A stretch of DNA of 32,261 nt from Saprospiraceae bacterium. GTDB lineage: Bacteria > Bacteroidota > Bacteroidia > Chitinophagales > Saprospiraceae. Positions 7,195-29,190 of this stretch are shown here, one piece after another. Numbering within the stretch: position 1 is the first letter of the stretch; every line of letters starts with the position of its first letter. The notes under the pieces are model-generated. The model did no database searches, was not told the origin of the DNA, and worked only from the letters and a program-made list of their open reading frames with translations. The stretch lies in assembly GCA_020627825.1 (NCBI GenBank), contig JAHDGD010000034.1:1-32261 (forward strand), written 5' to 3'. Made by a program: the position numbers and the translations under genes.

Positions 7195-8046
7195 ATGCTA
7201 GAAATTGTTGAATGTCCTAGAGATGCCATGCAAGGAATACATGAGTTTATTCCTACAGAAAAGAAATTGGCTTATCTACAGCAACTTTTAAGAGTAGGAT
7301 TTGATGTTATAGATTGTGGCTCATTTGTTTCTCACAAAGCGATTCCACAAATGCGCGACACACATGAATTGATCCAGCGGGTAAATTTGGACGAAAGTCC
7401 CACAAAATTACTGACAATTGCTGCTAATGAAAGAGGGGCGAATGATGCCACTCAATATGATAAGATTTCCTACATAGGGTATCCGTTTTCAATATCGGAA
7501 ACATTTCAACTTCGTAATACAAATTCTACTATAGCAGAGTCTCTTGAACGTGTAAAGAAGATTCAAGAAATTACGGTAAAAGCTGATAAGGAATTGGTTA
7601 TCTATATTTCTATGGGCTTTGGTAATCCTTATGGCGATCCTTGGAATGCAGAGATTGTCTTTGAATGGGTAGATAAACTTAAAGAATTAGATATAGGTAT
7701 TTTTGCATTAAGTGATACTATTGGTGTAGCTAATGCTACAAGTATTTATTATTTATTTTCGAAATTGATTCCACAATATGAAGAGTTAGTTTTCGGAGCT
7801 CATTTGCATACTAGACCAGATAATTGGCAAAAGAAAATTATTGCAGCATATGAGGCTGGGTGTCGAAGATTTGATGGCGCTATAAAAGGATTTGGCGGGT
7901 GTCCCATGGCTAAAGATGAGCTTGTAGGGAATATGGCTACAGAGAATCTTGTAGAATATTTTGGAAAAAAAGAGGAAATTCCGAATTTTAAGCTTCACGA
8001 ATTCGAAGAAGCCATGAAAATGTCAACTTCAGTATTCCTTACTTAA
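7195..8046 (+). CDS. Hydroxymethylglutaryl-CoA lyase-like protein
   Basis: HMGL-like TIM-barrel protein of 283 residues, related to enzymes that split HMG-CoA into acetoacetate and acetyl-CoA. Catalytic landmarks are kept: R9-D10 (ECPRDAMQG, where canonical lyases have GPRDGLQ), the metal-binding H203-x-H205 (GAHLHTRPD), C236 in GFGGCP and N246 in GNMATE. The spacing between that Cys and Asn is one residue longer than in the human enzyme as I remember it, and the AMQG start motif is also divergent, so a related Claisen-type lyase is possible. It would fit leucine catabolism. An ECF sigma gene follows within 20 bases and may even overlap its end, so the two are probably co-transcribed. Confidence 0.82.
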   Translation: MLEIVECPRDAMQGIHEFIPTEKKLAYLQQLLRVGFDVIDCGSFVSHKAIPQMRDTHELIQRVNLDESPTKLLTIAANERGANDATQYDKISYIGYPFSISETFQLRNTNSTIAESLERVKKIQEITVKADKELVIYISMGFGNPYGDPWNAEIVFEWVDKLKELDIGIFALSDTIGVANATSIYYLFSKLIPQYEELVFGAHLHTRPDNWQKKIIAAYEAGCRRFDGAIKGFGGCPMAKDELVGNMATENLVEYFGKKEEIPNFKLHEFEEAMKMSTSVFLT

Positions 8047-8057
8047 ACAAAACGACT

Positions 8058-8549
8058 ATTTTTTCGAAAGAAGCATATCAAGAGCTGTTTCGACAGTATT
8101 TTAATCCATTAACTAACTTTGCCTTTAATTACGTTAAAGATGACGATGTAGCGCAAGATGTTGTACAAGATGTATTTTTTAATTTGTGGCGTAATAGGAA
8201 AAAAATTGAAATAGGAGTAGGTATAAAATCTTATTTATTTACGTCTACGAAGAATAAAGTGCTGGAATATATTCGAAGAAATAAAATGATGGACGATCAT
8301 GCAGATAAAGTTCGGATTAATGAGCTTTTGCGCTATGATGTAGATGATGAAGCAGAAAAATATGTCCGCATAGAGAAAATACACCGTGCAATAAACCAAT
8401 TACCCCCCAAATGTCGTCAAATTTTCATGTTGAGTAAGATGAATGGGCTATCTTACATCGAAATTGCTGAACATTTAAAGATTTCACCAAAAACTGTAGA
8501 AAACCAAGTGATACGAGGACTAAAATTACTAAGAGATAAATTAAATTAA
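8058..8549 (+). CDS. ECF-type RNA polymerase sigma-70 factor
   Basis: Region 2 reads FSKEAYQELFRQYFNPLTNFAFNYVKDDDVAQDVVQDVFFNLW and region 4 is the helix-turn-helix LPPKCRQIFMLSKMNGLSYIEIAEHLKISPKTVENQV near the C-terminus, so this is a complete Bacteroidota ECF sigma. The start is the odd part: the frame is open back to a TAA at 7989 but has no ATG, GTG or TTG before the conserved region-2 helix. The first usable codons are ATT at 8058 (chosen, 163 residues) or ATT at 8034 inside the lyase gene; the TTG at 8184 would delete region 2. Its TAA overlaps the ATG of the FecR gene by one base, which ties it to the anti-sigma factor. Confidence 0.88.
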   Translation: MFSKEAYQELFRQYFNPLTNFAFNYVKDDDVAQDVVQDVFFNLWRNRKKIEIGVGIKSYLFTSTKNKVLEYIRRNKMMDDHADKVRINELLRYDVDDEAEKYVRIEKIHRAINQLPPKCRQIFMLSKMNGLSYIEIAEHLKISPKTVENQVIRGLKLLRDKLN

Positions 8550-9433
8550 TGACAGTACATGATTTCCTTTCCAAGCTATTTGGCACCGCTTCTTCTGAAG
8601 AAGAATTCGGTCACCTAGAGCAATGGAAAAAAGAGGGGATAGATAATGCAAAAGTGCTTCAAGAGATGCTTGATATTCATGATCATTCTAATGAACTTCA
8701 ACACTATAAGTCATATGATGTAGAACAAGCACTTTCTGCAAACTTAAATCGTATTCAAGACCGTCAGGTAACGAATAGTAAACCATTGAAATATGTTCTT
8801 TACGTTCTTCTTGGTCTTTTATTAGCAGCAGGTGTTTATATAGGTTTAAAGCCTAAAGCAGAACATACTTCATATTATGCAGAGACCCAGAAGCAATTGT
8901 CTATCGAAAATGGCACCCAGATTTCTATGAATGAAGAGACGCACATCACCTATCACAATAAAGAGAATTATCTAAAACTAGAAGGTGAAGCATTCTTCGA
9001 TGTAGAAAAACAAAAAACTCCATTTATAATCGAGACCCATCATGGTGAAATCACTGTTTTAGGGACGTCGTTTAATGTTAAGACATCAGATTTAAAAACA
9101 ACCATTTACATGCACGAAGGCACTATTCGCTTTGACAAGGATGGAAAAGAAACGAAGTTAACTGCTGGGCAGCTCTGTGAAGTAACGGATGAGATAAGTG
9201 TAAAGGTTCAAGAAGATAGTCAGCTTATCGATTATTGGAGAACTCATGCATTGACTTATAAAAATACACCTTTGACCAACGTTTTAGCTGATGTGAATCG
9301 TTTACATGGTACAAGCCTAAGGATCGATGGTGAAAATACTTCTGATATTCTGATTACAAGTTCATTTGAAAACAACAGTTTAGAAGAAATTGTAGAAATT
9401 TTAGAAGCTATTACGAATGTCGATATAAAGTAA
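8549..9433 (+). CDS. FecR family anti-sigma factor (first of two)
   Basis: A 294-residue inner-membrane regulator. An N-terminal cytoplasmic part (about 1-78) would bind the ECF sigma factor; one membrane helix lies at about 81-100 (KYVLYVLLGLLLAAGVYIGL); the periplasmic FecR domain follows, with GEAFFDVEKQKTPFIIET and TVLGTSFNV, and a C-terminal DUF4974-like domain (LTYKNTPLTNVLADVNRLHG onward). FecR proteins receive a signal from the N-terminal domain of a TonB-dependent transducer and release or activate the cognate sigma factor. It overlaps the sigma gene by one base and is followed 40 bases later by a transducer-type receptor, so all three parts of a cell-surface signalling system are adjacent. 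Confidence 0.93.
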   Translation: MTVHDFLSKLFGTASSEEEFGHLEQWKKEGIDNAKVLQEMLDIHDHSNELQHYKSYDVEQALSANLNRIQDRQVTNSKPLKYVLYVLLGLLLAAGVYIGLKPKAEHTSYYAETQKQLSIENGTQISMNEETHITYHNKENYLKLEGEAFFDVEKQKTPFIIETHHGEITVLGTSFNVKTSDLKTTIYMHEGTIRFDKDGKETKLTAGQLCEVTDEISVKVQEDSQLIDYWRTHALTYKNTPLTNVLADVNRLHGTSLRIDGENTSDILITSSFENNSLEEIVEILEAITNVDIK

Positions 9434-9473
9434 CTATTTTAGGCTTTTGTTTTTTTATAACGAGACCTGAAAA

Positions 9474-12095
9474 GTGAAAAAAATCGTCCTCATATTTTTA
9501 TTTAATCTCCTTTTCTTTGGGCTTCAAGCCCAAAAAGGAATAGACTTTGATCAAGTCTTAATTTTAAATGAAAAAACTGGAACCGTTCAATCCTTATTAG
9601 CTAATGTTCAAGAAATAAGCCAAGTCTCTTTCAGTTATTCGTCATCTGCTATTGATGCAAATGCTGTTGTTTACCTCTCTTCTAAGAATCTCACATTCAA
9701 GCAATTCATGAATGAATTGCAAGAACAATTAGAAATTGATTATATAGAGTTTAATAATAAAATTCTTTTAATTCCGTCCAAAAGTGAGGAAGTGGATTTT
9801 TGGATTGATGGCTATATAAGAGATAAAAGCAATGGAGAATCATTGATAGGAGCAACAATTTATAATGCTTCTAGAAATACGGTTACAGAAACGAATGAAT
9901 TCGGATATTATTCCATTAAAGTTACATCGAAAAATCAACTTATTCGAGTTTCCTACATAGGATATGAAGCTGAGATTATTACGGGATTTTCAGAAAATAA
10001 GAGAAGGATCAATCTTGATTTAGTACAGTCATTTAAACTGCCCAATATTGTCATAAAACCTTCTGATTCACTATCTTCTATTAGGCAAATAGATGGGGAA
10101 GTTGAAAAATCCTTAATGGTATCTAATCCTGGTATTTTAGGTGAAAATAACATTCTGCAATCCATCAAGTTGCTTTCAGAAATTCAATCGGGCGGAGAAG
10201 TACAAGGTAATATACTCGTTCAAGGTGGAGGTCCCGACCAAAATCTCATATTAATGGACGGAGTCCCTATTTATGAAGCGAATCACCTTCTAGGTTTAAC
10301 TAGTATTTTTAGCAGCGACGCAGTAAATTCTGTTGATTTAGAAACAAGTGCATTTTCTAGTAAATATGCCGGAAGATTATCTTCCGTTATCAATGTAAAA
10401 ACAAAAGATGGTAACAAATTCAAACACCAAGCAAGTGCGACGATGGGATTGTTGGGTGCAAGTTTTCATGTAGAGGGCCCTATTTCTAAAGGTAGAACCA
10501 GCTATCTATTATCGAGCAGGACATCGTATATCAATAGAATTCTAGAACCGATAGTCCAAAATTATTTTGATATATTAAATACAGAATTTAGATACGCCGA
10601 TCTTAAATTAAAATTGCATCATAATCTCACGAAGAACAGTTCTATTTCTGTAGGAGCATTTTTAGGAAATGATAAATTAGGATTTGGAAATCAACTGGAA
10701 ACAACGATTGAAGATGAAAATATCCAAGCATTTACCGATAATTCAATTCAATGGAGAAACCGATTATACAATATGCTGTTTAATCAAGTCGTAAATGAAA
10801 AATTGCAATTTTCGATTTCAGTCAGTACAGTAGAATATGATTTAAGTTCACTTTCTTCTAATCAGCTGTTAACAACAACAATAGACACTTCTATTTTTAG
10901 TTCTTTAGATGTGTTATCAGTTTCTACAATTGATGATGATAATCTAAGAACAGACTGGGAATACAAAGCAAGTGAAACCCAAAAAATATCGTTTGGAGGA
11001 GGAAGGTCTTGGCATGAATATTCCCCAAGTATAATCTCTCGAGATTCGATTATTGATGATATTAATCTGAATTTTACTGAAGGAATAAATGCTGTAGAAA
11101 CCTTTATTTATTTACAAGATGAAATTGATTTATCTCAATATTTTAAGTTAACTGCGGGATTTCATTTCTCAAGATTTGTAGTAGAGGATGTTGATTTTAA
11201 TTCTTTTCAACCTCGATTGAGTGCAGATATTTATTTGTCTGATCGAACAGACATTAAGCTATCCTACAGTGAAATGACTCAATTTGTCCATTTGTTGGTT
11301 AATCCTGGAACAGGTTTGCCAACTGATTTATGGCTTCCCTCAACGGAAAAAATTCAACCTGAAGAAAGTACTAATTACAATATTAGTGTGCGGCACAAAT
11401 GGAATAAACATTTCATAACAAGTAGTAATATGTACTATAGACAATTTAATAATTTAATAGATTATACAAGCGCATCACCTTTGTTTAATCCGGTTATAAC
11501 GAAGGCTACTTTTATTCCTATAATTAATAATGTACGAGACTGGGAAGATCGAGTAGAGTTGGGAAAAGGAGAGTCCTATGGTCTGAATGTTTTTGGATCT
11601 TACATTTCTCCACAATTTCGTCTATCTGCATCGTATGCTTATGGATTCTCGAATAGGCAATTTGATAATATTAACAGAGGGAATCCATTTCCTTACAGAT
11701 ACGACAGAAGACATGATGTGAATATTTTACTTCAGTACAGATTACGAGAAAATTGGACAGTAGGAGGTAATTGGATTTATGGAACTGGTCAAGCGACAAC
11801 TTTTGCAATTACAGAGTTTCTTACGATAGATGGTGAACCTGTTCTTGATTTTTCTCAACGCAATAATTTTAGAATGCCAGATTATCACCGTTTGGATTTA
11901 AGTGCCACCTATAAAAAGGAGATTTCAGATGATATAAAAATAACTATCGATATGGGGCTTTACAATGTCTATAATCGTTTGAATCCATATATCGTTTATT
12001 TACAAAATGATGAGGCAAATAATGAGTTTGAAGCAAGGCAAATTGGATTATTTCCAATATTGCCTTTTTTAAATGTAAAATTTAACTTTAACTAG
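9474..12095 (+). CDS. TonB-dependent outer-membrane receptor, transducer type with STN domain
   Basis: An 873-residue receptor starting at GTG 9474. After a signal peptide (about 1-19, ending LQAQ) comes an STN-like secretin/TonB N-terminal domain (about 28-100), the part that signals to FecR; then a carboxypeptidase-regulatory-like beta domain (about 110-185, IDGYIRDKSNGESLIGATI), a plug (about 205-310, with VQGGGPDQNLILMDGVPIYE) and a long beta-barrel ending in aromatic-rich strands (LPFLNVKFNFN). It imports an unknown ligand using TonB energy. It lies between two FecR genes and upstream of a DUF4249 lipoprotein. A perfect short palindrome at about 9507-9525 falls in the signal peptide codons and I do not read it as regulatory. 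Confidence 0.93.
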   Translation: MKKIVLIFLFNLLFFGLQAQKGIDFDQVLILNEKTGTVQSLLANVQEISQVSFSYSSSAIDANAVVYLSSKNLTFKQFMNELQEQLEIDYIEFNNKILLIPSKSEEVDFWIDGYIRDKSNGESLIGATIYNASRNTVTETNEFGYYSIKVTSKNQLIRVSYIGYEAEIITGFSENKRRINLDLVQSFKLPNIVIKPSDSLSSIRQIDGEVEKSLMVSNPGILGENNILQSIKLLSEIQSGGEVQGNILVQGGGPDQNLILMDGVPIYEANHLLGLTSIFSSDAVNSVDLETSAFSSKYAGRLSSVINVKTKDGNKFKHQASATMGLLGASFHVEGPISKGRTSYLLSSRTSYINRILEPIVQNYFDILNTEFRYADLKLKLHHNLTKNSSISVGAFLGNDKLGFGNQLETTIEDENIQAFTDNSIQWRNRLYNMLFNQVVNEKLQFSISVSTVEYDLSSLSSNQLLTTTIDTSIFSSLDVLSVSTIDDDNLRTDWEYKASETQKISFGGGRSWHEYSPSIISRDSIIDDINLNFTEGINAVETFIYLQDEIDLSQYFKLTAGFHFSRFVVEDVDFNSFQPRLSADIYLSDRTDIKLSYSEMTQFVHLLVNPGTGLPTDLWLPSTEKIQPEESTNYNISVRHKWNKHFITSSNMYYRQFNNLIDYTSASPLFNPVITKATFIPIINNVRDWEDRVELGKGESYGLNVFGSYISPQFRLSASYAYGFSNRQFDNINRGNPFPYRYDRRHDVNILLQYRLRENWTVGGNWIYGTGQATTFAITEFLTIDGEPVLDFSQRNNFRMPDYHRLDLSATYKKEISDDIKITIDMGLYNVYNRLNPYIVYLQNDEANNEFEARQIGLFPILPFLNVKFNFN

Positions 12096-12167
12096 GCCTA
12101 TTCTTGTGCCTATTATGACAATTTGCAGGTATTCAATATTTTTTTGACTTTGAGTTTTATTTTTTTT

Positions 12168-12194
12168 GGGGGTATAGAGAAAATGATACGTTTA
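12168..12194 (+). promoter_or_regulatory. Candidate alternative-sigma promoter before the second FecR gene
   Basis: The 122-bp gap after the receptor contains a T-tract running into GGGGGTA (12168-12174), a 14-base spacer, and CGTTTA (12189-12194), 24 bases before the FecR start. It differs from the housekeeping TAnnTTTG boxes elsewhere in the window, and its two-part form and position suggest an ECF-dependent promoter, possibly read by the sigma factor of this locus. This is inference from one site. Confidence 0.35.
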
Positions 12195-12217
12195 GTTAAT
12201 GGAACTAGACATGAATA

Positions 12218-13114
12218 GTGGAAAATAGAATTTTTAAGTTGTTGGCTGAGAAGCCATTTTCGAAATTAACGGTTTCCGAAAAAAAGGAAATAGAGACTTT
12301 TTTAACGGAGGAATCTGGACATACGTCATTTATAGCTGATCTACAATTTTTAGAGCAGAACACACCAGCATTTGAACAATACAAATCCTTTGATGGGGAG
12401 CTTCCAGAATCGACTTTTGATCAAGTTGATAAAAAGGAAAGAACCTATAAACTGCTGGTTCTTTCAACTGTATTTATAGCCCTTATGGTTGTTTTGATTT
12501 ATGTTTTCACAAAGAATCCTACCTCTACGTATCAATATGCTTTTTTACCTGATGGAACAGAAGTAAGATTAGAGGATAATGCCTCTATAAAGTATTCTGA
12601 AAATACTTTTTCAAACGAACGAACAGTAGCATTGAATGGGAATGCATTTTTTGATATACATCATGATGAACTGCATCCATTCAAAGTTCAGTTTGACCAA
12701 TATGAAATAACTGTTCTTGGAACCTCTTTCTATGTACAACAAGATGAAAAAGAAATATGGGTTCGAGATGGGAAAGTTAAAGTTTCTAATGGTGATCTAT
12801 CAATAGTGCTGACTAAAGGCGAAATGTTATCTTTCAGAAATAATGCACTAAAGAAAGTTGAATCTTCACCTTCTAAAGTTGCTCTTTTTAATAAGAAGTA
12901 CGAAAACAAAAAAGTGAAAGAAGTGATTCATGATCTTGCAGCTTACGCTGGGCTAACTGTTCATCTGAATGCATCTGTTTCCTCTTGTAAATATACAGGC
13001 CAATTCCGGGATGCATCATTGAAAGAAGCATTAGAAGAGTTGGTGGTATTGTTTTCTTTAGAATACCGTATAGAAGATCAACAACTTTACATTGAAGATA
13101 TTCAATGTAAGTAA
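12218..13114 (+). CDS. Second FecR family anti-sigma factor, without its own sigma factor
   Basis: A 298-residue protein with the same plan as the FecR at 8.5 kb: cytoplasmic N-terminus, one membrane helix at about 78-97 (KLLVLSTVFIALMVVLIYVF), FecR domain with GNAFFDIHHDELHPFKVQF and TVLGTSFYV, and a C-terminal DUF4974-like part (KKVKEVIHDLAAYAGLTVHL). It starts at GTG 12218. Its sequence differs clearly from the first FecR, so it is not a recent duplication. No sigma gene precedes it; instead it follows the receptor, with a G-rich promoter-like box in the gap. It may be a second brake on the sigma factor at 8.06 kb, or serve one encoded elsewhere. Confidence 0.9.
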   Translation: MENRIFKLLAEKPFSKLTVSEKKEIETFLTEESGHTSFIADLQFLEQNTPAFEQYKSFDGELPESTFDQVDKKERTYKLLVLSTVFIALMVVLIYVFTKNPTSTYQYAFLPDGTEVRLEDNASIKYSENTFSNERTVALNGNAFFDIHHDELHPFKVQFDQYEITVLGTSFYVQQDEKEIWVRDGKVKVSNGDLSIVLTKGEMLSFRNNALKKVESSPSKVALFNKKYENKKVKEVIHDLAAYAGLTVHLNASVSSCKYTGQFRDASLKEALEELVVLFSLEYRIEDQQLYIEDIQCK

Positions 13115-13229
13115 TTGATACTTATTGAATAGTAAACGTTTTTACAGTTTCCTTAAAAAACAACTTTTTTCTCAAATTTGATGGTAATAATCGTTGCGAA
13201 GACAATTATTTATTTGTAGATTTGGGAAG

Positions 13230-14075
13230 ATGAAGTTATCACCCCCTATATATTTTGTTTTTTTGACGTTTGTTGCGTTTTTGTCTTGTGACAGCTCGTT
13301 GAAAGTTGATGCGAATAGCAAAACAAAAATGGTGATGAATGGCATTCTTTTGGTCAATGACACGATAGAAGTAGAACTTAGCACGACTCGGAATTTATTT
13401 GATAAAGAAGACCAAATAGATTGGGTAAGAAATGCTGATGTCTACCTAATTTGTCCTGAATTTGTACTTCCTGAAAAACTAGTGTATAAAGGAAACGGTA
13501 TGTATGCTTCTCAAAAGCATATAGCAAAGTATGGTGGAGAATATTCTATAGAAGTCATTCATAATACATATGATAATATTTCTGCTACGGCATATATGCC
13601 AAAGGCAATAAGAGGAGAAGTTGTTTTTACGGGAACTACTGATGACGAGTCGAATTTTGAAATCAATATTGATAATGAAGATGATAATAGTTACTTTATC
13701 TGGGAAATGCTTAGAAGAAATTCTTCTGGAATATTAAGTAATGTCGAAATTACAAGTAAAGACAGTAGAACAGACAATATACTTCCTGAAGAGACACAAG
13801 TTCAAGAAAAGATTTTTCTTGAAGATTCTAATAACCTTAGTGGAAATATAAACTCAACTTTCAGTACATCAGATATTTCTCAAGATGATTTTGAAAATGC
13901 TGAAATTCGTTTGATTACGGTCAATGAAGATATGTATAAATATTTCCGTTCTATTGAATTGTATAAAAATTCATCTAGAAACTTTATCAAACCCGTCGAA
14001 ATTTATTCTAATGTAGACAATGGTCTTGGAATTTTTGGTGCAATCAGTGAAAGTGTTATTCCCATCGTTCAATAA
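13230..14075 (+). CDS. DUF4249 lipoprotein paired with the transducer receptor
   Basis: A 281-residue lipoprotein: MKLSPPIYFVFLTFVAFLSC is a lipoprotein signal peptide with its lipid-accepting Cys, which is why I start at ATG 13230; an in-frame TTG at 13194 would add a basic stretch before the signal. The rest is a beta-rich secreted domain ending in the family's YSNVDNGLGIFGA motif. DUF4249 proteins in Bacteroidota are regularly encoded right after TonB-dependent receptors, as here and again at 28.3 kb, and probably work with them at the outer membrane, but no biochemical role is established that I know of. It is the last gene of the sigma-FecR-receptor-FecR locus. Confidence 0.85.
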   Translation: MKLSPPIYFVFLTFVAFLSCDSSLKVDANSKTKMVMNGILLVNDTIEVELSTTRNLFDKEDQIDWVRNADVYLICPEFVLPEKLVYKGNGMYASQKHIAKYGGEYSIEVIHNTYDNISATAYMPKAIRGEVVFTGTTDDESNFEINIDNEDDNSYFIWEMLRRNSSGILSNVEITSKDSRTDNILPEETQVQEKIFLEDSNNLSGNINSTFSTSDISQDDFENAEIRLITVNEDMYKYFRSIELYKNSSRNFIKPVEIYSNVDNGLGIFGAISESVIPIVQ

Positions 14076-14120: not shown

Positions 14121-14288
14121 CTAAAACTCTCACTTAATTTGTTTGTATATGCTTATTACATACTTACACCTATATGACGAAATATAGGAATAAGTTGTTG
14201 CAATACATCTGTTAAGTCTTTCTTAATGTTTGTTAACTTTCTTAACTCATATATTTTTTTACATTGCCATGTAATTTCTTCCTTTTAG

Positions 14289-14328
14289 AATTTCGAAGTA
14301 GCTAAGGTTATTCTTTTATTTTAGATGT
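14289..14328 (+). repeat. 40-bp direct repeat, copy 1
   Basis: Identical over 40 bases to 14717-14756, beginning AATTTCGAAGTAGCTAAGG and ending TTTTAGATGT. Similarity fades gradually on both sides (CTTTACCTATTTAT here against TAACCTATCTATTTGT at copy 2), so the ancestral unit was longer, perhaps 70 bp. Confidence 0.85.
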
Positions 14329-14716
14329 TACTTTACCTATTTATAATTTGGATGTAGCACCAACAGTTTAATTGATATTATTCATATTCTCTTTATCTAA
14401 AAAGGGATTCGCCCGAAATAATTGTCCGAGCAGTAAAATAACCGAAATTTGCGGCTAATGCGGGTAGATTTAGAGCAAATTTCGAGGGACTGAAAACGAA
14501 TGATTAGACTGACGAAAACACCAAGTTAAGTGAATAACTTAGACGATTTTTATGCAAGGTTAGACCTTTTGAAACTTTTTACGGCAATAGTAAAAAAGTA
14601 CCAATGATATACTTACTGAAATAAAATATTGCATCAACCCACCCAACGTTAAATACCTTTTAATTTCTAAATTGTTGTATAAATTCTTCATACAATAAAT
14701 TATTTTTTTCTTGGAA

Positions 14717-14756
14717 AATTTCGAAGTAGCTAAGGTTATTCTTTTATTTTAGATGT
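14717..14756 (+). repeat. 40-bp direct repeat, copy 2
   Basis: Second exact copy, 428 bp downstream of the first and in the same orientation. The pair brackets 388 bp that hold the 10-bp inverted repeat and the relic-like short frames. Confidence 0.85.
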
Positions 14757-25772: not shown

Positions 25773-25820
25773 AAAGGAGATGTCGGTAAAAACATACCGT
25801 TCATCTCTTTTATTTTTTTT
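25773..25820 (+). terminator. pruA terminator
   Basis: AAAGGAGATG...CGGT (25773-25787) pairs with ACCG...CATCTCTTTT (25796-25811), followed by TATTTTTTTT. The in-frame ATG at 25780 of the downstream receptor frame lies inside the left arm, which argues against that as the receptor start. Confidence 0.85.
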
Positions 25821-25878
25821 CAGTGAATTTTCGACCTATTTTCGATTTAGCTCTCGTTATAGAACAAACAATTATGAT

Positions 25879-28296
25879 ATGACAAACAAATGCTTATTGT
25901 CTGTGCTTTTTCTATGTATGGTTCATATTGCTTTTTCGCAAGAAAAATATACCATCAGTGGATATATTACAGATAAGAACACAGGTGAAGGGCTCATTGC
26001 TGCAAATGTTGCTGATTTGCGGACTGGAAAAGGTACAGTTACCAATACCTATGGATTTTATTCTTTAACAGTTCCTGGTGACTCACTTTTTCTTGGTGTC
26101 TCCTATGTAGGGTACCAAACACAGGTCATTCCACTTTTTCTCAGAGAAGATATGACGCTAGATATTACCATGAGTGATGAGACTGCACTTCAAACTGTAG
26201 AAATTGTTGCTACAAAATCAGAAGAGCTCATTGAAGAAAAAACTCAAATGAGTTCTATTAAAGTACCTGTTGCACAATTAAAAAAGTTGCCAGCTTTTTT
26301 GGGAGAAGTAGATATCTTAAAGGCCATACAGTTACTTCCTGGTGTGCAAAGCGGAGGCGAAGGGCAAAGTGGTTTTTATGTTCGAGGTGGTTCTCAGGAT
26401 CAAAATTTAATCTTACTCGATGGAACACCCGTTTATAACGCATCACACCTTTTCGGTTTCTTCTCCGTGTTTAATGCAGATGCGATAAAAGATGTTACCT
26501 TAATAAAAGGTGGGTTTCCAGCTCGATACGGGGGACGATTATCTTCTGTACTCGATATTTCTATGAAAGAAGGAAACATGAAGAAATTCCAAGGTTCAGG
26601 CACTATCGGTCTTGTCGCTTCTAAGCTAACACTGGAAGGGCCAATATGGAAAGATAAAGCAGCTTTTATCATTTCGGGAAGACGTACCTATATTGATGTG
26701 CTTGCTCGGCCTTTAATCGCTTATTCTTTTGCTCAACAAGAAGGTAGTACGGGTACTCTTGGTTACTACTTTTATGATTTGAATGCTAAAATGAATTGGA
26801 AAATCAGTTCGAAGGACCGTATTTATTTATCGGCATATTCAGGTGATGATCAATTTTATACTCGATTCACTGATGAACAAGAAAGGGGTGGAGAGAAAGT
26901 GTCAGAAGGAGTTCAAGTTGGACTTGGCTGGGGAAATCTTACATCGACATTGCGTTGGAATCATTTGTGGACAGATAAATTGTTCTCCAATACGGCGATC
27001 ACTTATTCAAGATATCGGTTTTTAACCGAGAATTCTTTTACATCGGAAGAATTTGTCAACGATGTATTAGAGAATGGCACAAACGTAGGATTCGGTTATG
27101 TCAGCGGAATAAATGATGTGTCGGCAAAAATTGATTTTGATTACATTCCTGTTCCCAATCATTTTATACGATTTGGAGCAAATACCACACGTCATGTTTT
27201 TATTCCAGGTGAAAATTTCTTCAATTTTGAACTGATTTCAGAAGGAGAAGAGGTTTTTAAATTAGACAGTATTATAGGACAAGACACTACTTATGCTTGG
27301 GAAAACTATGTATATATAGAGGACGATTTTGAGATAACGTCAAGATTAAAAGCTAATATCGGCTTGCATTATTCTAATTTTTTGGTTGACAAACAACAAT
27401 ATCATTCCATTCAGCCAAGAATCTCCTTAAGATATCTTTTTGGTAATAAATTGTCGGTTAAAGCCAGTTTTGCAACCATGCAACAAAATATTCAATTCTT
27501 GACAAATGAGAATCTTGGATTACCTTGGGATCAATGGTTGCCTTCAACTGATGCCATTTCACCTCAAACGAGTTGGCAAATCGCTGCAGGTGCAGCTAAA
27601 ACATTTAAAGGAGGGTATGAAGTCAGTATAGAAGGGTATTACAAAAAAATGAATAATGTTTCAGCGTATAAAGAGGGTGCTTCTAATTTCGACGGAGTTG
27701 ATTGGCAAGAACAGATCACTCAAGGAGAGGGATTATCCTATGGTGCTGAATTATTCGTTCAAAAGAAAGTCGGGAAATTAAGTGGATGGATAGGGTATAC
27801 ATTAAGTTGGAGCTGGAGAAGATTCGATGATAAGAATTTCGGGGAGTGGTATCCATTTACTTTCGATAGACGTCATGACATATCAATAGTAGGTGTTTAT
27901 GAACTATCGGATCGATGGAATTTTAGTGCCACATGGGTTTACGGAACAGGGAATAGTTATACCTTTCCTACTAGTTTGTCTTACTATATTCAAGATTTTG
28001 GATTTGGAGGATTTCCTACACCAATCAACAATGTTACAGAACGAAGTAATTATAGATTAGCACCTTATCATAGAGCAGATATTAATGCAGATTATTCATG
28101 GGGGAAGAAAAGATGGAAAAATAAAATAAGCGTAGGCGCATATAATGCCTATAACCGCAAAAATCCATTCTTCGTAAATCCAGAAACAGAATTCACTTTT
28201 AACGAAGAAACAGGAGAATTTGAAAGTAGACAAGTTTTACGTCAATACTCTCTATTTCGCTTGATTCCTGCGATTTCTTATTCTTTTACTTTTTAA
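25879..28296 (+). CDS. TonB-dependent outer-membrane receptor without STN domain
   Basis: An 805-residue receptor. I start at ATG 25879, where a signal peptide begins (MTNKCLLSVLFLCMVHIAFSQ); the frame runs back to 25780 but that part overlaps the pruA terminator and reads as a basic, non-signal stretch. After the signal come a carboxypeptidase-regulatory-like domain (YTISGYITDKNTGEGLIAANV), a plug with FYVRGGSQDQNLILLDGTPVYNASHLFG, and a beta-barrel ending FRLIPAISYSFTF. Unlike the receptor at 9.5 kb there is no STN domain, and no sigma/FecR genes are near, so it is probably a non-signalling importer. The DUF4249 lipoprotein gene follows after 12 bases. Confidence 0.93.
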   Translation: MTNKCLLSVLFLCMVHIAFSQEKYTISGYITDKNTGEGLIAANVADLRTGKGTVTNTYGFYSLTVPGDSLFLGVSYVGYQTQVIPLFLREDMTLDITMSDETALQTVEIVATKSEELIEEKTQMSSIKVPVAQLKKLPAFLGEVDILKAIQLLPGVQSGGEGQSGFYVRGGSQDQNLILLDGTPVYNASHLFGFFSVFNADAIKDVTLIKGGFPARYGGRLSSVLDISMKEGNMKKFQGSGTIGLVASKLTLEGPIWKDKAAFIISGRRTYIDVLARPLIAYSFAQQEGSTGTLGYYFYDLNAKMNWKISSKDRIYLSAYSGDDQFYTRFTDEQERGGEKVSEGVQVGLGWGNLTSTLRWNHLWTDKLFSNTAITYSRYRFLTENSFTSEEFVNDVLENGTNVGFGYVSGINDVSAKIDFDYIPVPNHFIRFGANTTRHVFIPGENFFNFELISEGEEVFKLDSIIGQDTTYAWENYVYIEDDFEITSRLKANIGLHYSNFLVDKQQYHSIQPRISLRYLFGNKLSVKASFATMQQNIQFLTNENLGLPWDQWLPSTDAISPQTSWQIAAGAAKTFKGGYEVSIEGYYKKMNNVSAYKEGASNFDGVDWQEQITQGEGLSYGAELFVQKKVGKLSGWIGYTLSWSWRRFDDKNFGEWYPFTFDRRHDISIVGVYELSDRWNFSATWVYGTGNSYTFPTSLSYYIQDFGFGGFPTPINNVTERSNYRLAPYHRADINADYSWGKKRWKNKISVGAYNAYNRKNPFFVNPETEFTFNEETGEFESRQVLRQYSLFRLIPAISYSFTF

Positions 28297-28308
28297 AATA
28301 TACGAACG

Positions 28309-29190
28309 ATGAAATTTAATACTATATATATTGTCTTAGCTATCCTTCTGATTGGTTCTTCATGTCAAGATTATTTAACTAAAACCATCGAATTTGAAGA
28401 TGTAGGATTCGAACCACAAATGGTTGTGAATTTTAAGATTACAGATTCCATTGAAGTTTTCAATATTTCAATAAGCAAAAACGTAAATTACGCCAATAAT
28501 GCCAATCCTGAGTATCAATTCGTTGAGGGTGCTGTTGTGAAACTATTCATTGATGGCGAAACTTTTACAGCTGAAGAGCAAACTGGGGTTGATCCGACGA
28601 TCAATGTTTACAACCATATATTGACATTGCCTGATGGGTTTAGTTTGACGAATAAACAATACGAACTAGAAGTTACACATCCTGATTATCCTACCGTTCG
28701 ATCTTCAACCTATATACCATTATCTCCTACTATAGAAGACATTGAATTCGAGAAAGAAGCTCGAACTTCTACTGAATTTGGATATGTAAATGTACAAGAT
28801 GCGGTACGATTTAGAATTAATGACAATACGGAAGAAACGAATTATTATGTTCTTCAGGTGCTAAATAATGGGTTTTTCTTAAGCTCTGAAATGGATGATC
28901 CTTTAGCAGAACCCACTTTCTTGTCAGGTTTTTTGATAAGTGATGCTGATTATCCTGTAGATGATCCGGAATTCACGATTTATTTTCAAAGTTTCGAAGA
29001 TACTGAGATGGAACTGGTATTGCAGATTAAGAATATTTCGGAAAGCGAATACCTTTTTCTTCAATCATATGAACAATATAGAAGTTCTCAAAACTTTGGC
29101 TTTTTTGCAGAACCCGTGACCTTGTTTTCAAACATAGAAGGAGGATTGGGTATTTTTTCAGCAGAACAAGTCCAAGAATTTGAATTGTAA
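28309..29190 (+). CDS. DUF4249 lipoprotein paired with the second receptor
   Basis: A 293-residue lipoprotein: MKFNTIYIVLAILLIGSSC is the signal with the lipidated Cys at 19. The mature part is beta-rich (FEPQMVVNFKITDSIEVFNISISK...) and ends in FSNIEGGLGIFSAEQVQEFEL, the same GLGIF-type tail as the DUF4249 protein at 13.2 kb. It begins 12 bases after the receptor stop, so the two are one transcription unit and probably act together at the outer membrane. It is convergent with the rhomboid gene, 33 bases away; I see no clear terminator in that gap. Confidence 0.87.
   Translation: MKFNTIYIVLAILLIGSSCQDYLTKTIEFEDVGFEPQMVVNFKITDSIEVFNISISKNVNYANNANPEYQFVEGAVVKLFIDGETFTAEEQTGVDPTINVYNHILTLPDGFSLTNKQYELEVTHPDYPTVRSSTYIPLSPTIEDIEFEKEARTSTEFGYVNVQDAVRFRINDNTEETNYYVLQVLNNGFFLSSEMDDPLAEPTFLSGFLISDADYPVDDPEFTIYFQSFEDTEMELVLQIKNISESEYLFLQSYEQYRSSQNFGFFAEPVTLFSNIEGGLGIFSAEQVQEFEL

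Follow-up and report, generated by a model that had tools for sequence, protein, structure and literature searches.

Cell-surface signalling is usually described in terms of one sigma factor, one regulator and one receptor. Here we describe an operon from a Saprospiraceae bacterium (GCA_020627825.1, contig JAHDGD010000034.1; the window, that is the whole stretch of DNA analysed, is 32,261 nt long) in which one extracytoplasmic function (ECF) sigma gene and one TonB-dependent receptor gene are accompanied by two FecR-type regulator genes, FecR1 ahead of the receptor and FecR2 behind it. Its components resemble those of FecI-FecR-FecA and PupI-PupR-PupB, which combine an ECF sigma factor, a membrane regulator (with anti-sigma, transmembrane, beta and STN-like domains) and an STN-type TonB receptor. 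The FecI/PupI-type systems tabled in PMC9249621 have one regulator each, whereas the window has two diverged regulators for one receptor, plus a DUF4249 gene. FpvR of P. aeruginosa, with FpvI and PvdS, also breaks the pairing of one sigma factor with one regulator, but there one regulator serves two sigma factors (PMC9249621) and the window shows the converse, one sigma factor with two regulators. The receptor-DUF4249 pair itself recalls BT2172/BT2173. Receptors of that subfamily nearly always adjoin a DUF4249 gene (PMC11003636), and the main text of the same paper holds no occurrence of FecR. Among titles and abstract openings we found neither a receptor operon with two FecR genes nor a paper joining Saprospiraceae with FecR.

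We conclude that the two-FecR arrangement is a real, conserved variant of cell-surface signalling, made of known parts in an unusual division, and that it is apparently rare. The evidence leans towards two specialised copies rather than two equal anti-sigma factors.

Two FecR genes flank one receptor gene

The operon lies on the + strand at 7195-14075, in the order HMG-CoA-lyase-like gene, ECF sigma factor, FecR1, STN-type TonB receptor, FecR2 and DUF4249. Its features are as follows.

7195..8046, + strand: HMGL-like gene (hydroxymethylglutaryl-CoA lyase family; Pfam PF00682, E 6.2e-18)
8058..8549, + strand: ECF sigma factor, FecI-like (TIGR02985), with a probable ATT start at 8058
8549..9433, + strand: FecR1 (PF04773 59.6 bits, PF16344 30.7), its ATG overlapping the sigma stop codon (TAATG)
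8720..8761, + strand: predicted anti-sigma helix 4 of FecR1, residues 58-71 (AlphaFold2 model, alignment)
9474..12095, + strand: TonB-dependent receptor with N-terminal STN-type signalling domain (Pfam, HHalign)
12096..12217, + strand: receptor-FecR2 gap of 122 bp, without a sigma gene
12218..13114, + strand: FecR2, GTG start (PF04773 50.8 bits, PF16344 30.8)
12986..12988, + strand: codon of FecR2 Cys257, in the STN-like domain; the codon of its possible partner, Cys297, is at 13106-13108
13230..14075, + strand: DUF4249 lipoprotein (PF14054 99.2 bits)

FecR1 and FecR2 are 22% identical, and both exceed the cut-offs for PF04773 (FecR domain) and PF16344 (FecR_C). An earlier sequence-only reading had proposed one ECF sigma factor with two diverged FecRs around a single receptor, the second FecR having no sigma gene of its own; the open reading frames (ORFs), their Pfam domains and the empty 122-bp gap bear this out. 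The sigma protein matches Pfam sigma region r2 (E 9.8e-14) and r4_2 (E 1.8e-16), and belongs to the FecI-like type of Bacteroidota (TIGR02985, 159.5 bits against a curated cut-off of 126.4).

A FecR without its own sigma gene is unusual inside this genome. Six of its eight FecR genes lie outside this operon, each no more than about 0.5 kb from a sigma gene, although one is separated from its sigma gene by a 155-codon ORF. The genome also contains 35 sigma-region-2 matches, of which only seven sigma genes adjoin a FecR, so that FecR2 might serve a sigma factor encoded elsewhere. We regard this as improbable, since all six FecR2 genes found are in this operon type and FecR2 clusters with the FecRs of that type, not with the paralogues of other loci.

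The two-FecR order is conserved in two genera

The sequence-only reading had proposed looking for the order sigma-FecR-receptor-FecR-DUF4249 in relatives, and the search recovered it. We found the same gene order in six genomes of two genera: the window's own genome (G000), two others of its genus (G002 and G003) and loci L162, L163 and L164 of a sister genus, in which the FecR2 frame is 316-317 codons long. In G002 the locus is split over two contigs that both end within the receptor gene, one carrying lyase, sigma, FecR1 and receptor, the other receptor, FecR2 and DUF4249. In G003 (L061, 6579-11030) the order is kept and sigma and FecR1 are intact, whilst the receptor has a single frameshift and several indels disrupt FecR2 and DUF4249. 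This pattern of breakage pairs FecR2 with the receptor side. The genus has a fourth genome, G001 (51% complete), in which the locus was not found, and a search for further members of genera g41 and g20 gave none beyond the genomes already compared. Recurrence of the order in congeners and in the sister genus indicates that it is not a chance leftover. With two FecR genes in six genomes, these operons depart from the rule of one regulator per sigma factor.

In the family, 398 genomes were searched with the sigma alignment, and 60 of the 74 best rows were fetched (nine were already included and five left out). In 38 of the 60 fetched loci the receptor precedes a recognised DUF4249 gene; three of these have FecR2 and 35 do not. 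Among 48 FecR-preceded receptors of the annotated loci (at least 600 codons, with at least 1 kb behind), a second FecR follows only that of the window (1/48), a count that misses G002, where the receptor is split over two contigs, and G003, where the second FecR is broken. By eye, no other close same-strand FecR pair was seen among the matches listed for 31 phylum-wide genomes (own included); G079 has one divergent pair, about 3 kb apart.

Two further loci, L185 and L182 (genomes G134 and G278), have the order lyase-sigma-receptor with a sigma-receptor spacing of only about 80-100 bp. No FecR was found in that spacing, and the ECF sigma factor apparently has no adjacent regulator.

FecR2 is a single lineage under coding constraint

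In a tree of 53 chosen FecR rows the five intact FecR2s group together as a clade (95 bootstrap / 89 SH-like approximate likelihood ratio test, SH-aLRT), separate from the FecR1s and from the single FecRs of relatives. In a 90-row tree FecR2 falls within a 14-row group of this operon type's FecRs (SH-aLRT 89), and its recent acquisition from some other sigma-FecR locus is accordingly unsupported. The sigma and receptor tree (46 loci) places the two genera as sisters (SH-aLRT 82). On this tree full-length FecR2 takes one change, or five if full FecR2 and the short ORFs described below are treated as one state. Because it is a single clade accounted for by one change, FecR2 is most simply read as one ancient lineage that arose by duplication of the FecR of this operon and was retained by the ancestor of the two sister genera. 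A first reading of FecR2 as an insertion confined to the genus was overturned by the sister-genus loci. The FecR1s of the two genera lie near each other, not as one clade in the best tree, but a single clade is not rejected (approximately unbiased test, p-AU 0.19).

FecR2 is the least alike of the four genes compared between G000 and G002, at 31% identity against 39% for FecR1, 49% for DUF4249 and 53% for sigma. This divergence, with its breakage in G003, is what might be expected if FecR2 were the decaying remnant of a sigma-FecR unit or of a redundant copy. Such decay seems very unlikely, as FecR2 is open and full length in five of the six genomes and keeps both C-terminal Cys in those five. 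Its differences between G000 and G002 are 0.56/0.43/0.64 per codon position; second positions are conserved, indicating coding constraint. No sigma gene lies between receptor and FecR2 in any of the six loci. The earlier suggestion that a sigma gene had been lost from the 12.1-12.2 kb gap was thus not upheld, given the lack of a sigma gene there in all six loci, the FecR2 lineage common to two genera and the coding constraint.

FecR1 and FecR2 show complementary losses

Both proteins have the same architecture, an N-terminal helical domain, one transmembrane helix, a periplasmic beta domain and an STN-like end, the long helix being read as the transmembrane segment from sequence and predicted structure. 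AlphaFold2 monomer models were built from 57-row alignments, with a mean predicted local distance difference test (pLDDT) of 89.2 for FecR1 and 85.4 for FecR2. In Foldseek searches both models best match the periplasmic domain of PupR (6ovk; E ~1e-11) and a putative anti-sigma factor of Parabacteroides (4m0h/4m0n).

The models differ at both ends. That of FecR1 has a fourth cytoplasmic helix (58-71), and its STN-like domain ends after the second helix (278-289), with the last hairpin missing. That of FecR2 has no helix across 57-71 but a complete STN-like domain with final strands 282-286 and 289-294. In class I anti-sigma factors a three-helix bundle binds sigma region 4 and the fourth helix binds region 2, probably blocking RNA polymerase contact (PMC7406223). 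By model and by motif FecR1 has this fourth helix and the window's FecR2 lacks it. By analogy, helix 4 of FecR1 may contact sigma region 2 and the FecR domains may be of class I.

The alignments follow the same division. Both C-terminal Cys are present in 5/5 intact FecR2s, 0/6 FecR1s and 53 of 61 single FecRs from sigma-related loci, the remainder being seven without either Cys and one with a single Cys. In FecR2, Cys257 and Cys297 may form a disulfide. By alignment, all six FecR1s keep the Trp-containing linker that joins the beta and STN-like domains, and the FecR2s have lost or shortened it; a crude regular expression for the linker Trp gave 3/6 FecR1s, 0/5 FecR2s and 54/61 single FecRs, missing the three shortened FecR1s of this genus. 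The helix-4 motif, also scored by regular expression, occurs in 6/6 FecR1s, 45/61 single FecRs and 3/5 FecR2s, these three being those of the sister genus; it is absent from FecR2 of G000 and G002. Thus FecR1 lacks the C-terminal Cys and has helix 4, whilst FecR2 has both Cys and a shortened linker without Trp. The division is milder in the sister genus, where FecR1s have lost the Cys and only the last few residues and FecR2s keep helix 4 (3/3). These complementary losses of ancestral pieces suggest that the copies now do different parts of the job.

Single FecRs that end early like the window's FecR1 occur in sigma-FecR-receptor-DUF4249 loci of Bacteroidales (L082, L085 and L098). The idea that FecR1 is fully without sensing is weakened, because such shortened single FecRs exist elsewhere.

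Short anti-sigma-like ORFs lie behind the receptor in relatives

In relatives we examined 19 gaps between receptor and DUF4249, each about 0.1 kb or longer. Seven (L064, L074, L076, L077, L133, L165 and L166, from four lineages) contain a plus-strand ORF matching the FecR anti-sigma domain profile at 8.3-15.9 bits; the next real match scores 4.2, and 20 block-shuffled sets gave 6.7 at most. The ORFs are about 40-90 codons long, that of L076 being a fragment. The helix-4 motif (Y/W..FD...A[WFL]) is found in L074, L077, L133 and L165 and in a near form in L166 and L076, but not in L064. Between the 59-codon ORFs of L077 and L133 there are 27/16/30 differences at codon positions 1/2/3, indicating a coding signature. 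Their substitution score is 125, a value reached in none of 5000 uniform-substitution simulations (null 45, sd 18). What occupies the slot may be small proteins of anti-sigma type, or what is left of an ancestral FecR2.

These ORFs bear on the possibility that FecR2, like FecR1, is a genuine anti-sigma factor of this sigma, giving two-input control or, being made in step with the receptor, negative feedback. ORFs that resemble the anti-sigma domain but carry no receptor domain, as in 7/19 of the slots, fit feedback on sigma, and the coding signature of L077/L133 adds to this. The short ORFs are also patchy within genera: congeners of L165 and L166 have no ORF or no gap, and that of L076 is frameshifted, so they may be remnants. 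All three sister-genus FecR2s keep helix 4 and may still bind sigma, making a feedback anti-sigma the leading rival; the FecR2s of the window and G002 have no helix 4. On balance we hold this unlikely, though well worth keeping in view. As to the two-input control suggested by the sequence-only reading, specialised copies are better supported than equal anti-sigmas.

In L187 and L190 the receptor-DUF4249 gap is about 1.2-1.3 kb and contains a 319-332-codon ORF, which we take from its motifs to be sulfotransferase-like.

The sigma gene has a probable non-canonical start

The first in-frame ATG, GTG or TTG of the window's sigma gene is at 8184, already inside region 2, and the probable start at 8058 is ATT. 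In G000, G002 and G003 there is no ATG, GTG or TTG from the upstream in-frame stop to region 2 (in G000 this stretch includes the overlap with the lyase gene). The aligned start codon is ATT in G000, ATT in G002 (L063:3159) and ATC in G003 (L061:5173), two codons inward of a TTG frequent in relatives. In genus g96, L166 has ATA and L169 CTG, against TTG in their congener L167.

Among the fetched orthologues, with one anchor, ATG is available to 7 of 44 sigma genes (35 have only GTG/TTG and two none), and with the other to 10 of 48 (36 and two), compared with 51/56 FecR and 11/16 lyase genes of the same loci, the lengths of the searched stretches differing. A wider set of 63 sigma ORFs includes 34 with an ATG and four with no ATG, GTG or TTG, three of these from this genus. 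Expression of sigma by frameshift or read-through from the lyase gene was judged unlikely, because in-frame stops lie 2-3 codons ahead of the aligned start in G002 and G003.

A known parallel is Streptomyces SigR, also a sigma gene with a non-canonical start. Its GTC start is repressed by initiation factor IF3, which leaves an excess of the anti-sigma (PMC5472188). The cases differ in codon (ATT/ATC in the window's genus), in phylum (Bacteroidota) and in sigma type (FecI), and IF3 control is here only proposed. By this analogy, the non-canonical start could perhaps act as a second, translational brake of the IF3 type.

Neighbouring genes and other features of the window

The lyase-like gene, whose stop codon is 11 nt ahead of the sigma start, scores 165.5 bits against NCBIfam PRK05692, under the cut-off of 246. 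It serves as upstream neighbour and synteny anchor, and is also present in G002, G003 and part of the other loci. In the receptor, CarbopepD_reg_2 is above cut-off and the plug domain slightly below (21.9 against 23.9). Its N-terminus matches the FecR STN-like domains with an HHalign probability of 93.9%; the Pfam STN model alone gives E 0.082, below cut-off. The DUF4249 ORF is listed from 13194, and the lipoprotein signal fits the ATG at 13230 as the start.

The Bacteroidota promoter consensus TTTG-N17..23-TAnnTTTG had no match in the window against 2.9 expected, and the operon boundary could not be placed by it. A sigma-70 promoter scan gave 37 matches against 40 by chance. Behind the operon, in a stretch free of long ORFs, is a 55-nt direct repeat, 91% identical (14274-14328 and 14702-14756). 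Another receptor-DUF4249 pair, with no sigma or FecR beside it, lies at 25780-29190; its receptor aligns with that of the operon only from the carboxypeptidase-regulatory-like domain onward.

Discussion

Gene order, a single origin of FecR2, complementary losses and coding constraint are the observations to be explained. As the best single account, tentatively and at slightly less than an even chance, we propose that FecR2 is a long-diverged duplicate, that the pair divided the ancestral job and that FecR2 is a receptor-linked co-regulator. FecR1, whose gene overlaps that of sigma, would clamp sigma as its anti-sigma factor, a role assigned because it has the complete four-helix anti-sigma domain; its end would be labile and unstapled. 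FecR2, in the receptor's half of the operon, would keep a stapled, receptor-facing STN-like domain. It would share or compete for the STN domain of the receptor, or pair with FecR1, and so tune how the state of the receptor reaches FecR1 and sigma. Since FecR2 would be made together with the receptor, presumably by co-transcription, this would provide output-coupled feedback. The effect could have either sign. Binding of the receptor STN domain shields the anti-sigma against proteolysis (PMC11637429), so competition might strip FecR1 of protection and release more sigma. Alternatively, FecR2 might dampen induction, as does the C-terminal HasS fragment (PMC9249621).

Several points weigh against this account. 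The losses in G003 depend on a single metagenome-assembled genome. PupR touches its receptor through the linker, beta17 and alpha2, and needs both periplasmic subdomains (PMC7186176); FecR1 retains all three elements and FecR2 has lost the linker motif, so the chief contact with the receptor may still be made by FecR1. Some single FecRs lack the C-terminal end (L082, L085 and L098, with 7/61 lacking both Cys) and presumably work. The helix 4 kept in all sister-genus FecR2s means that helix loss is not general, and as residues 1-59 of E. coli FecR suffice to act on FecI (PMC9249621), it need not abolish sigma binding. Finally, the loss of Cys from FecR1 may be a single event (p-AU 0.19), and the six sequences are then not six independent cases.

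The specialised-copy account can be joined to the other results in a wider reading, which we consider distinctly doubtful. FecR1 and FecR2 would form a split relay of sigma clamp and stapled sensor. The slot behind the receptor would be an old site of an output-coupled second anti-sigma, present in relatives as a stand-alone microprotein of 40-70 residues. Sigma would be kept scarce by a non-AUG start under initiation-factor control.

A conserved non-AUG start would carry the SigR case over to the FecI type, and gene finders that accept only ATG, GTG and TTG would truncate or miss such a sigma protein. For cell-surface signalling itself, a conserved regulator pair whose losses are complementary amounts to a natural experiment in which sigma holding is set apart from receptor sensing. 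With it one can test which regions of FecR touch the receptor, how the C-terminal Cys pair acts against proteolysis, and whether a feedback anti-sigma is built into receptor operons.

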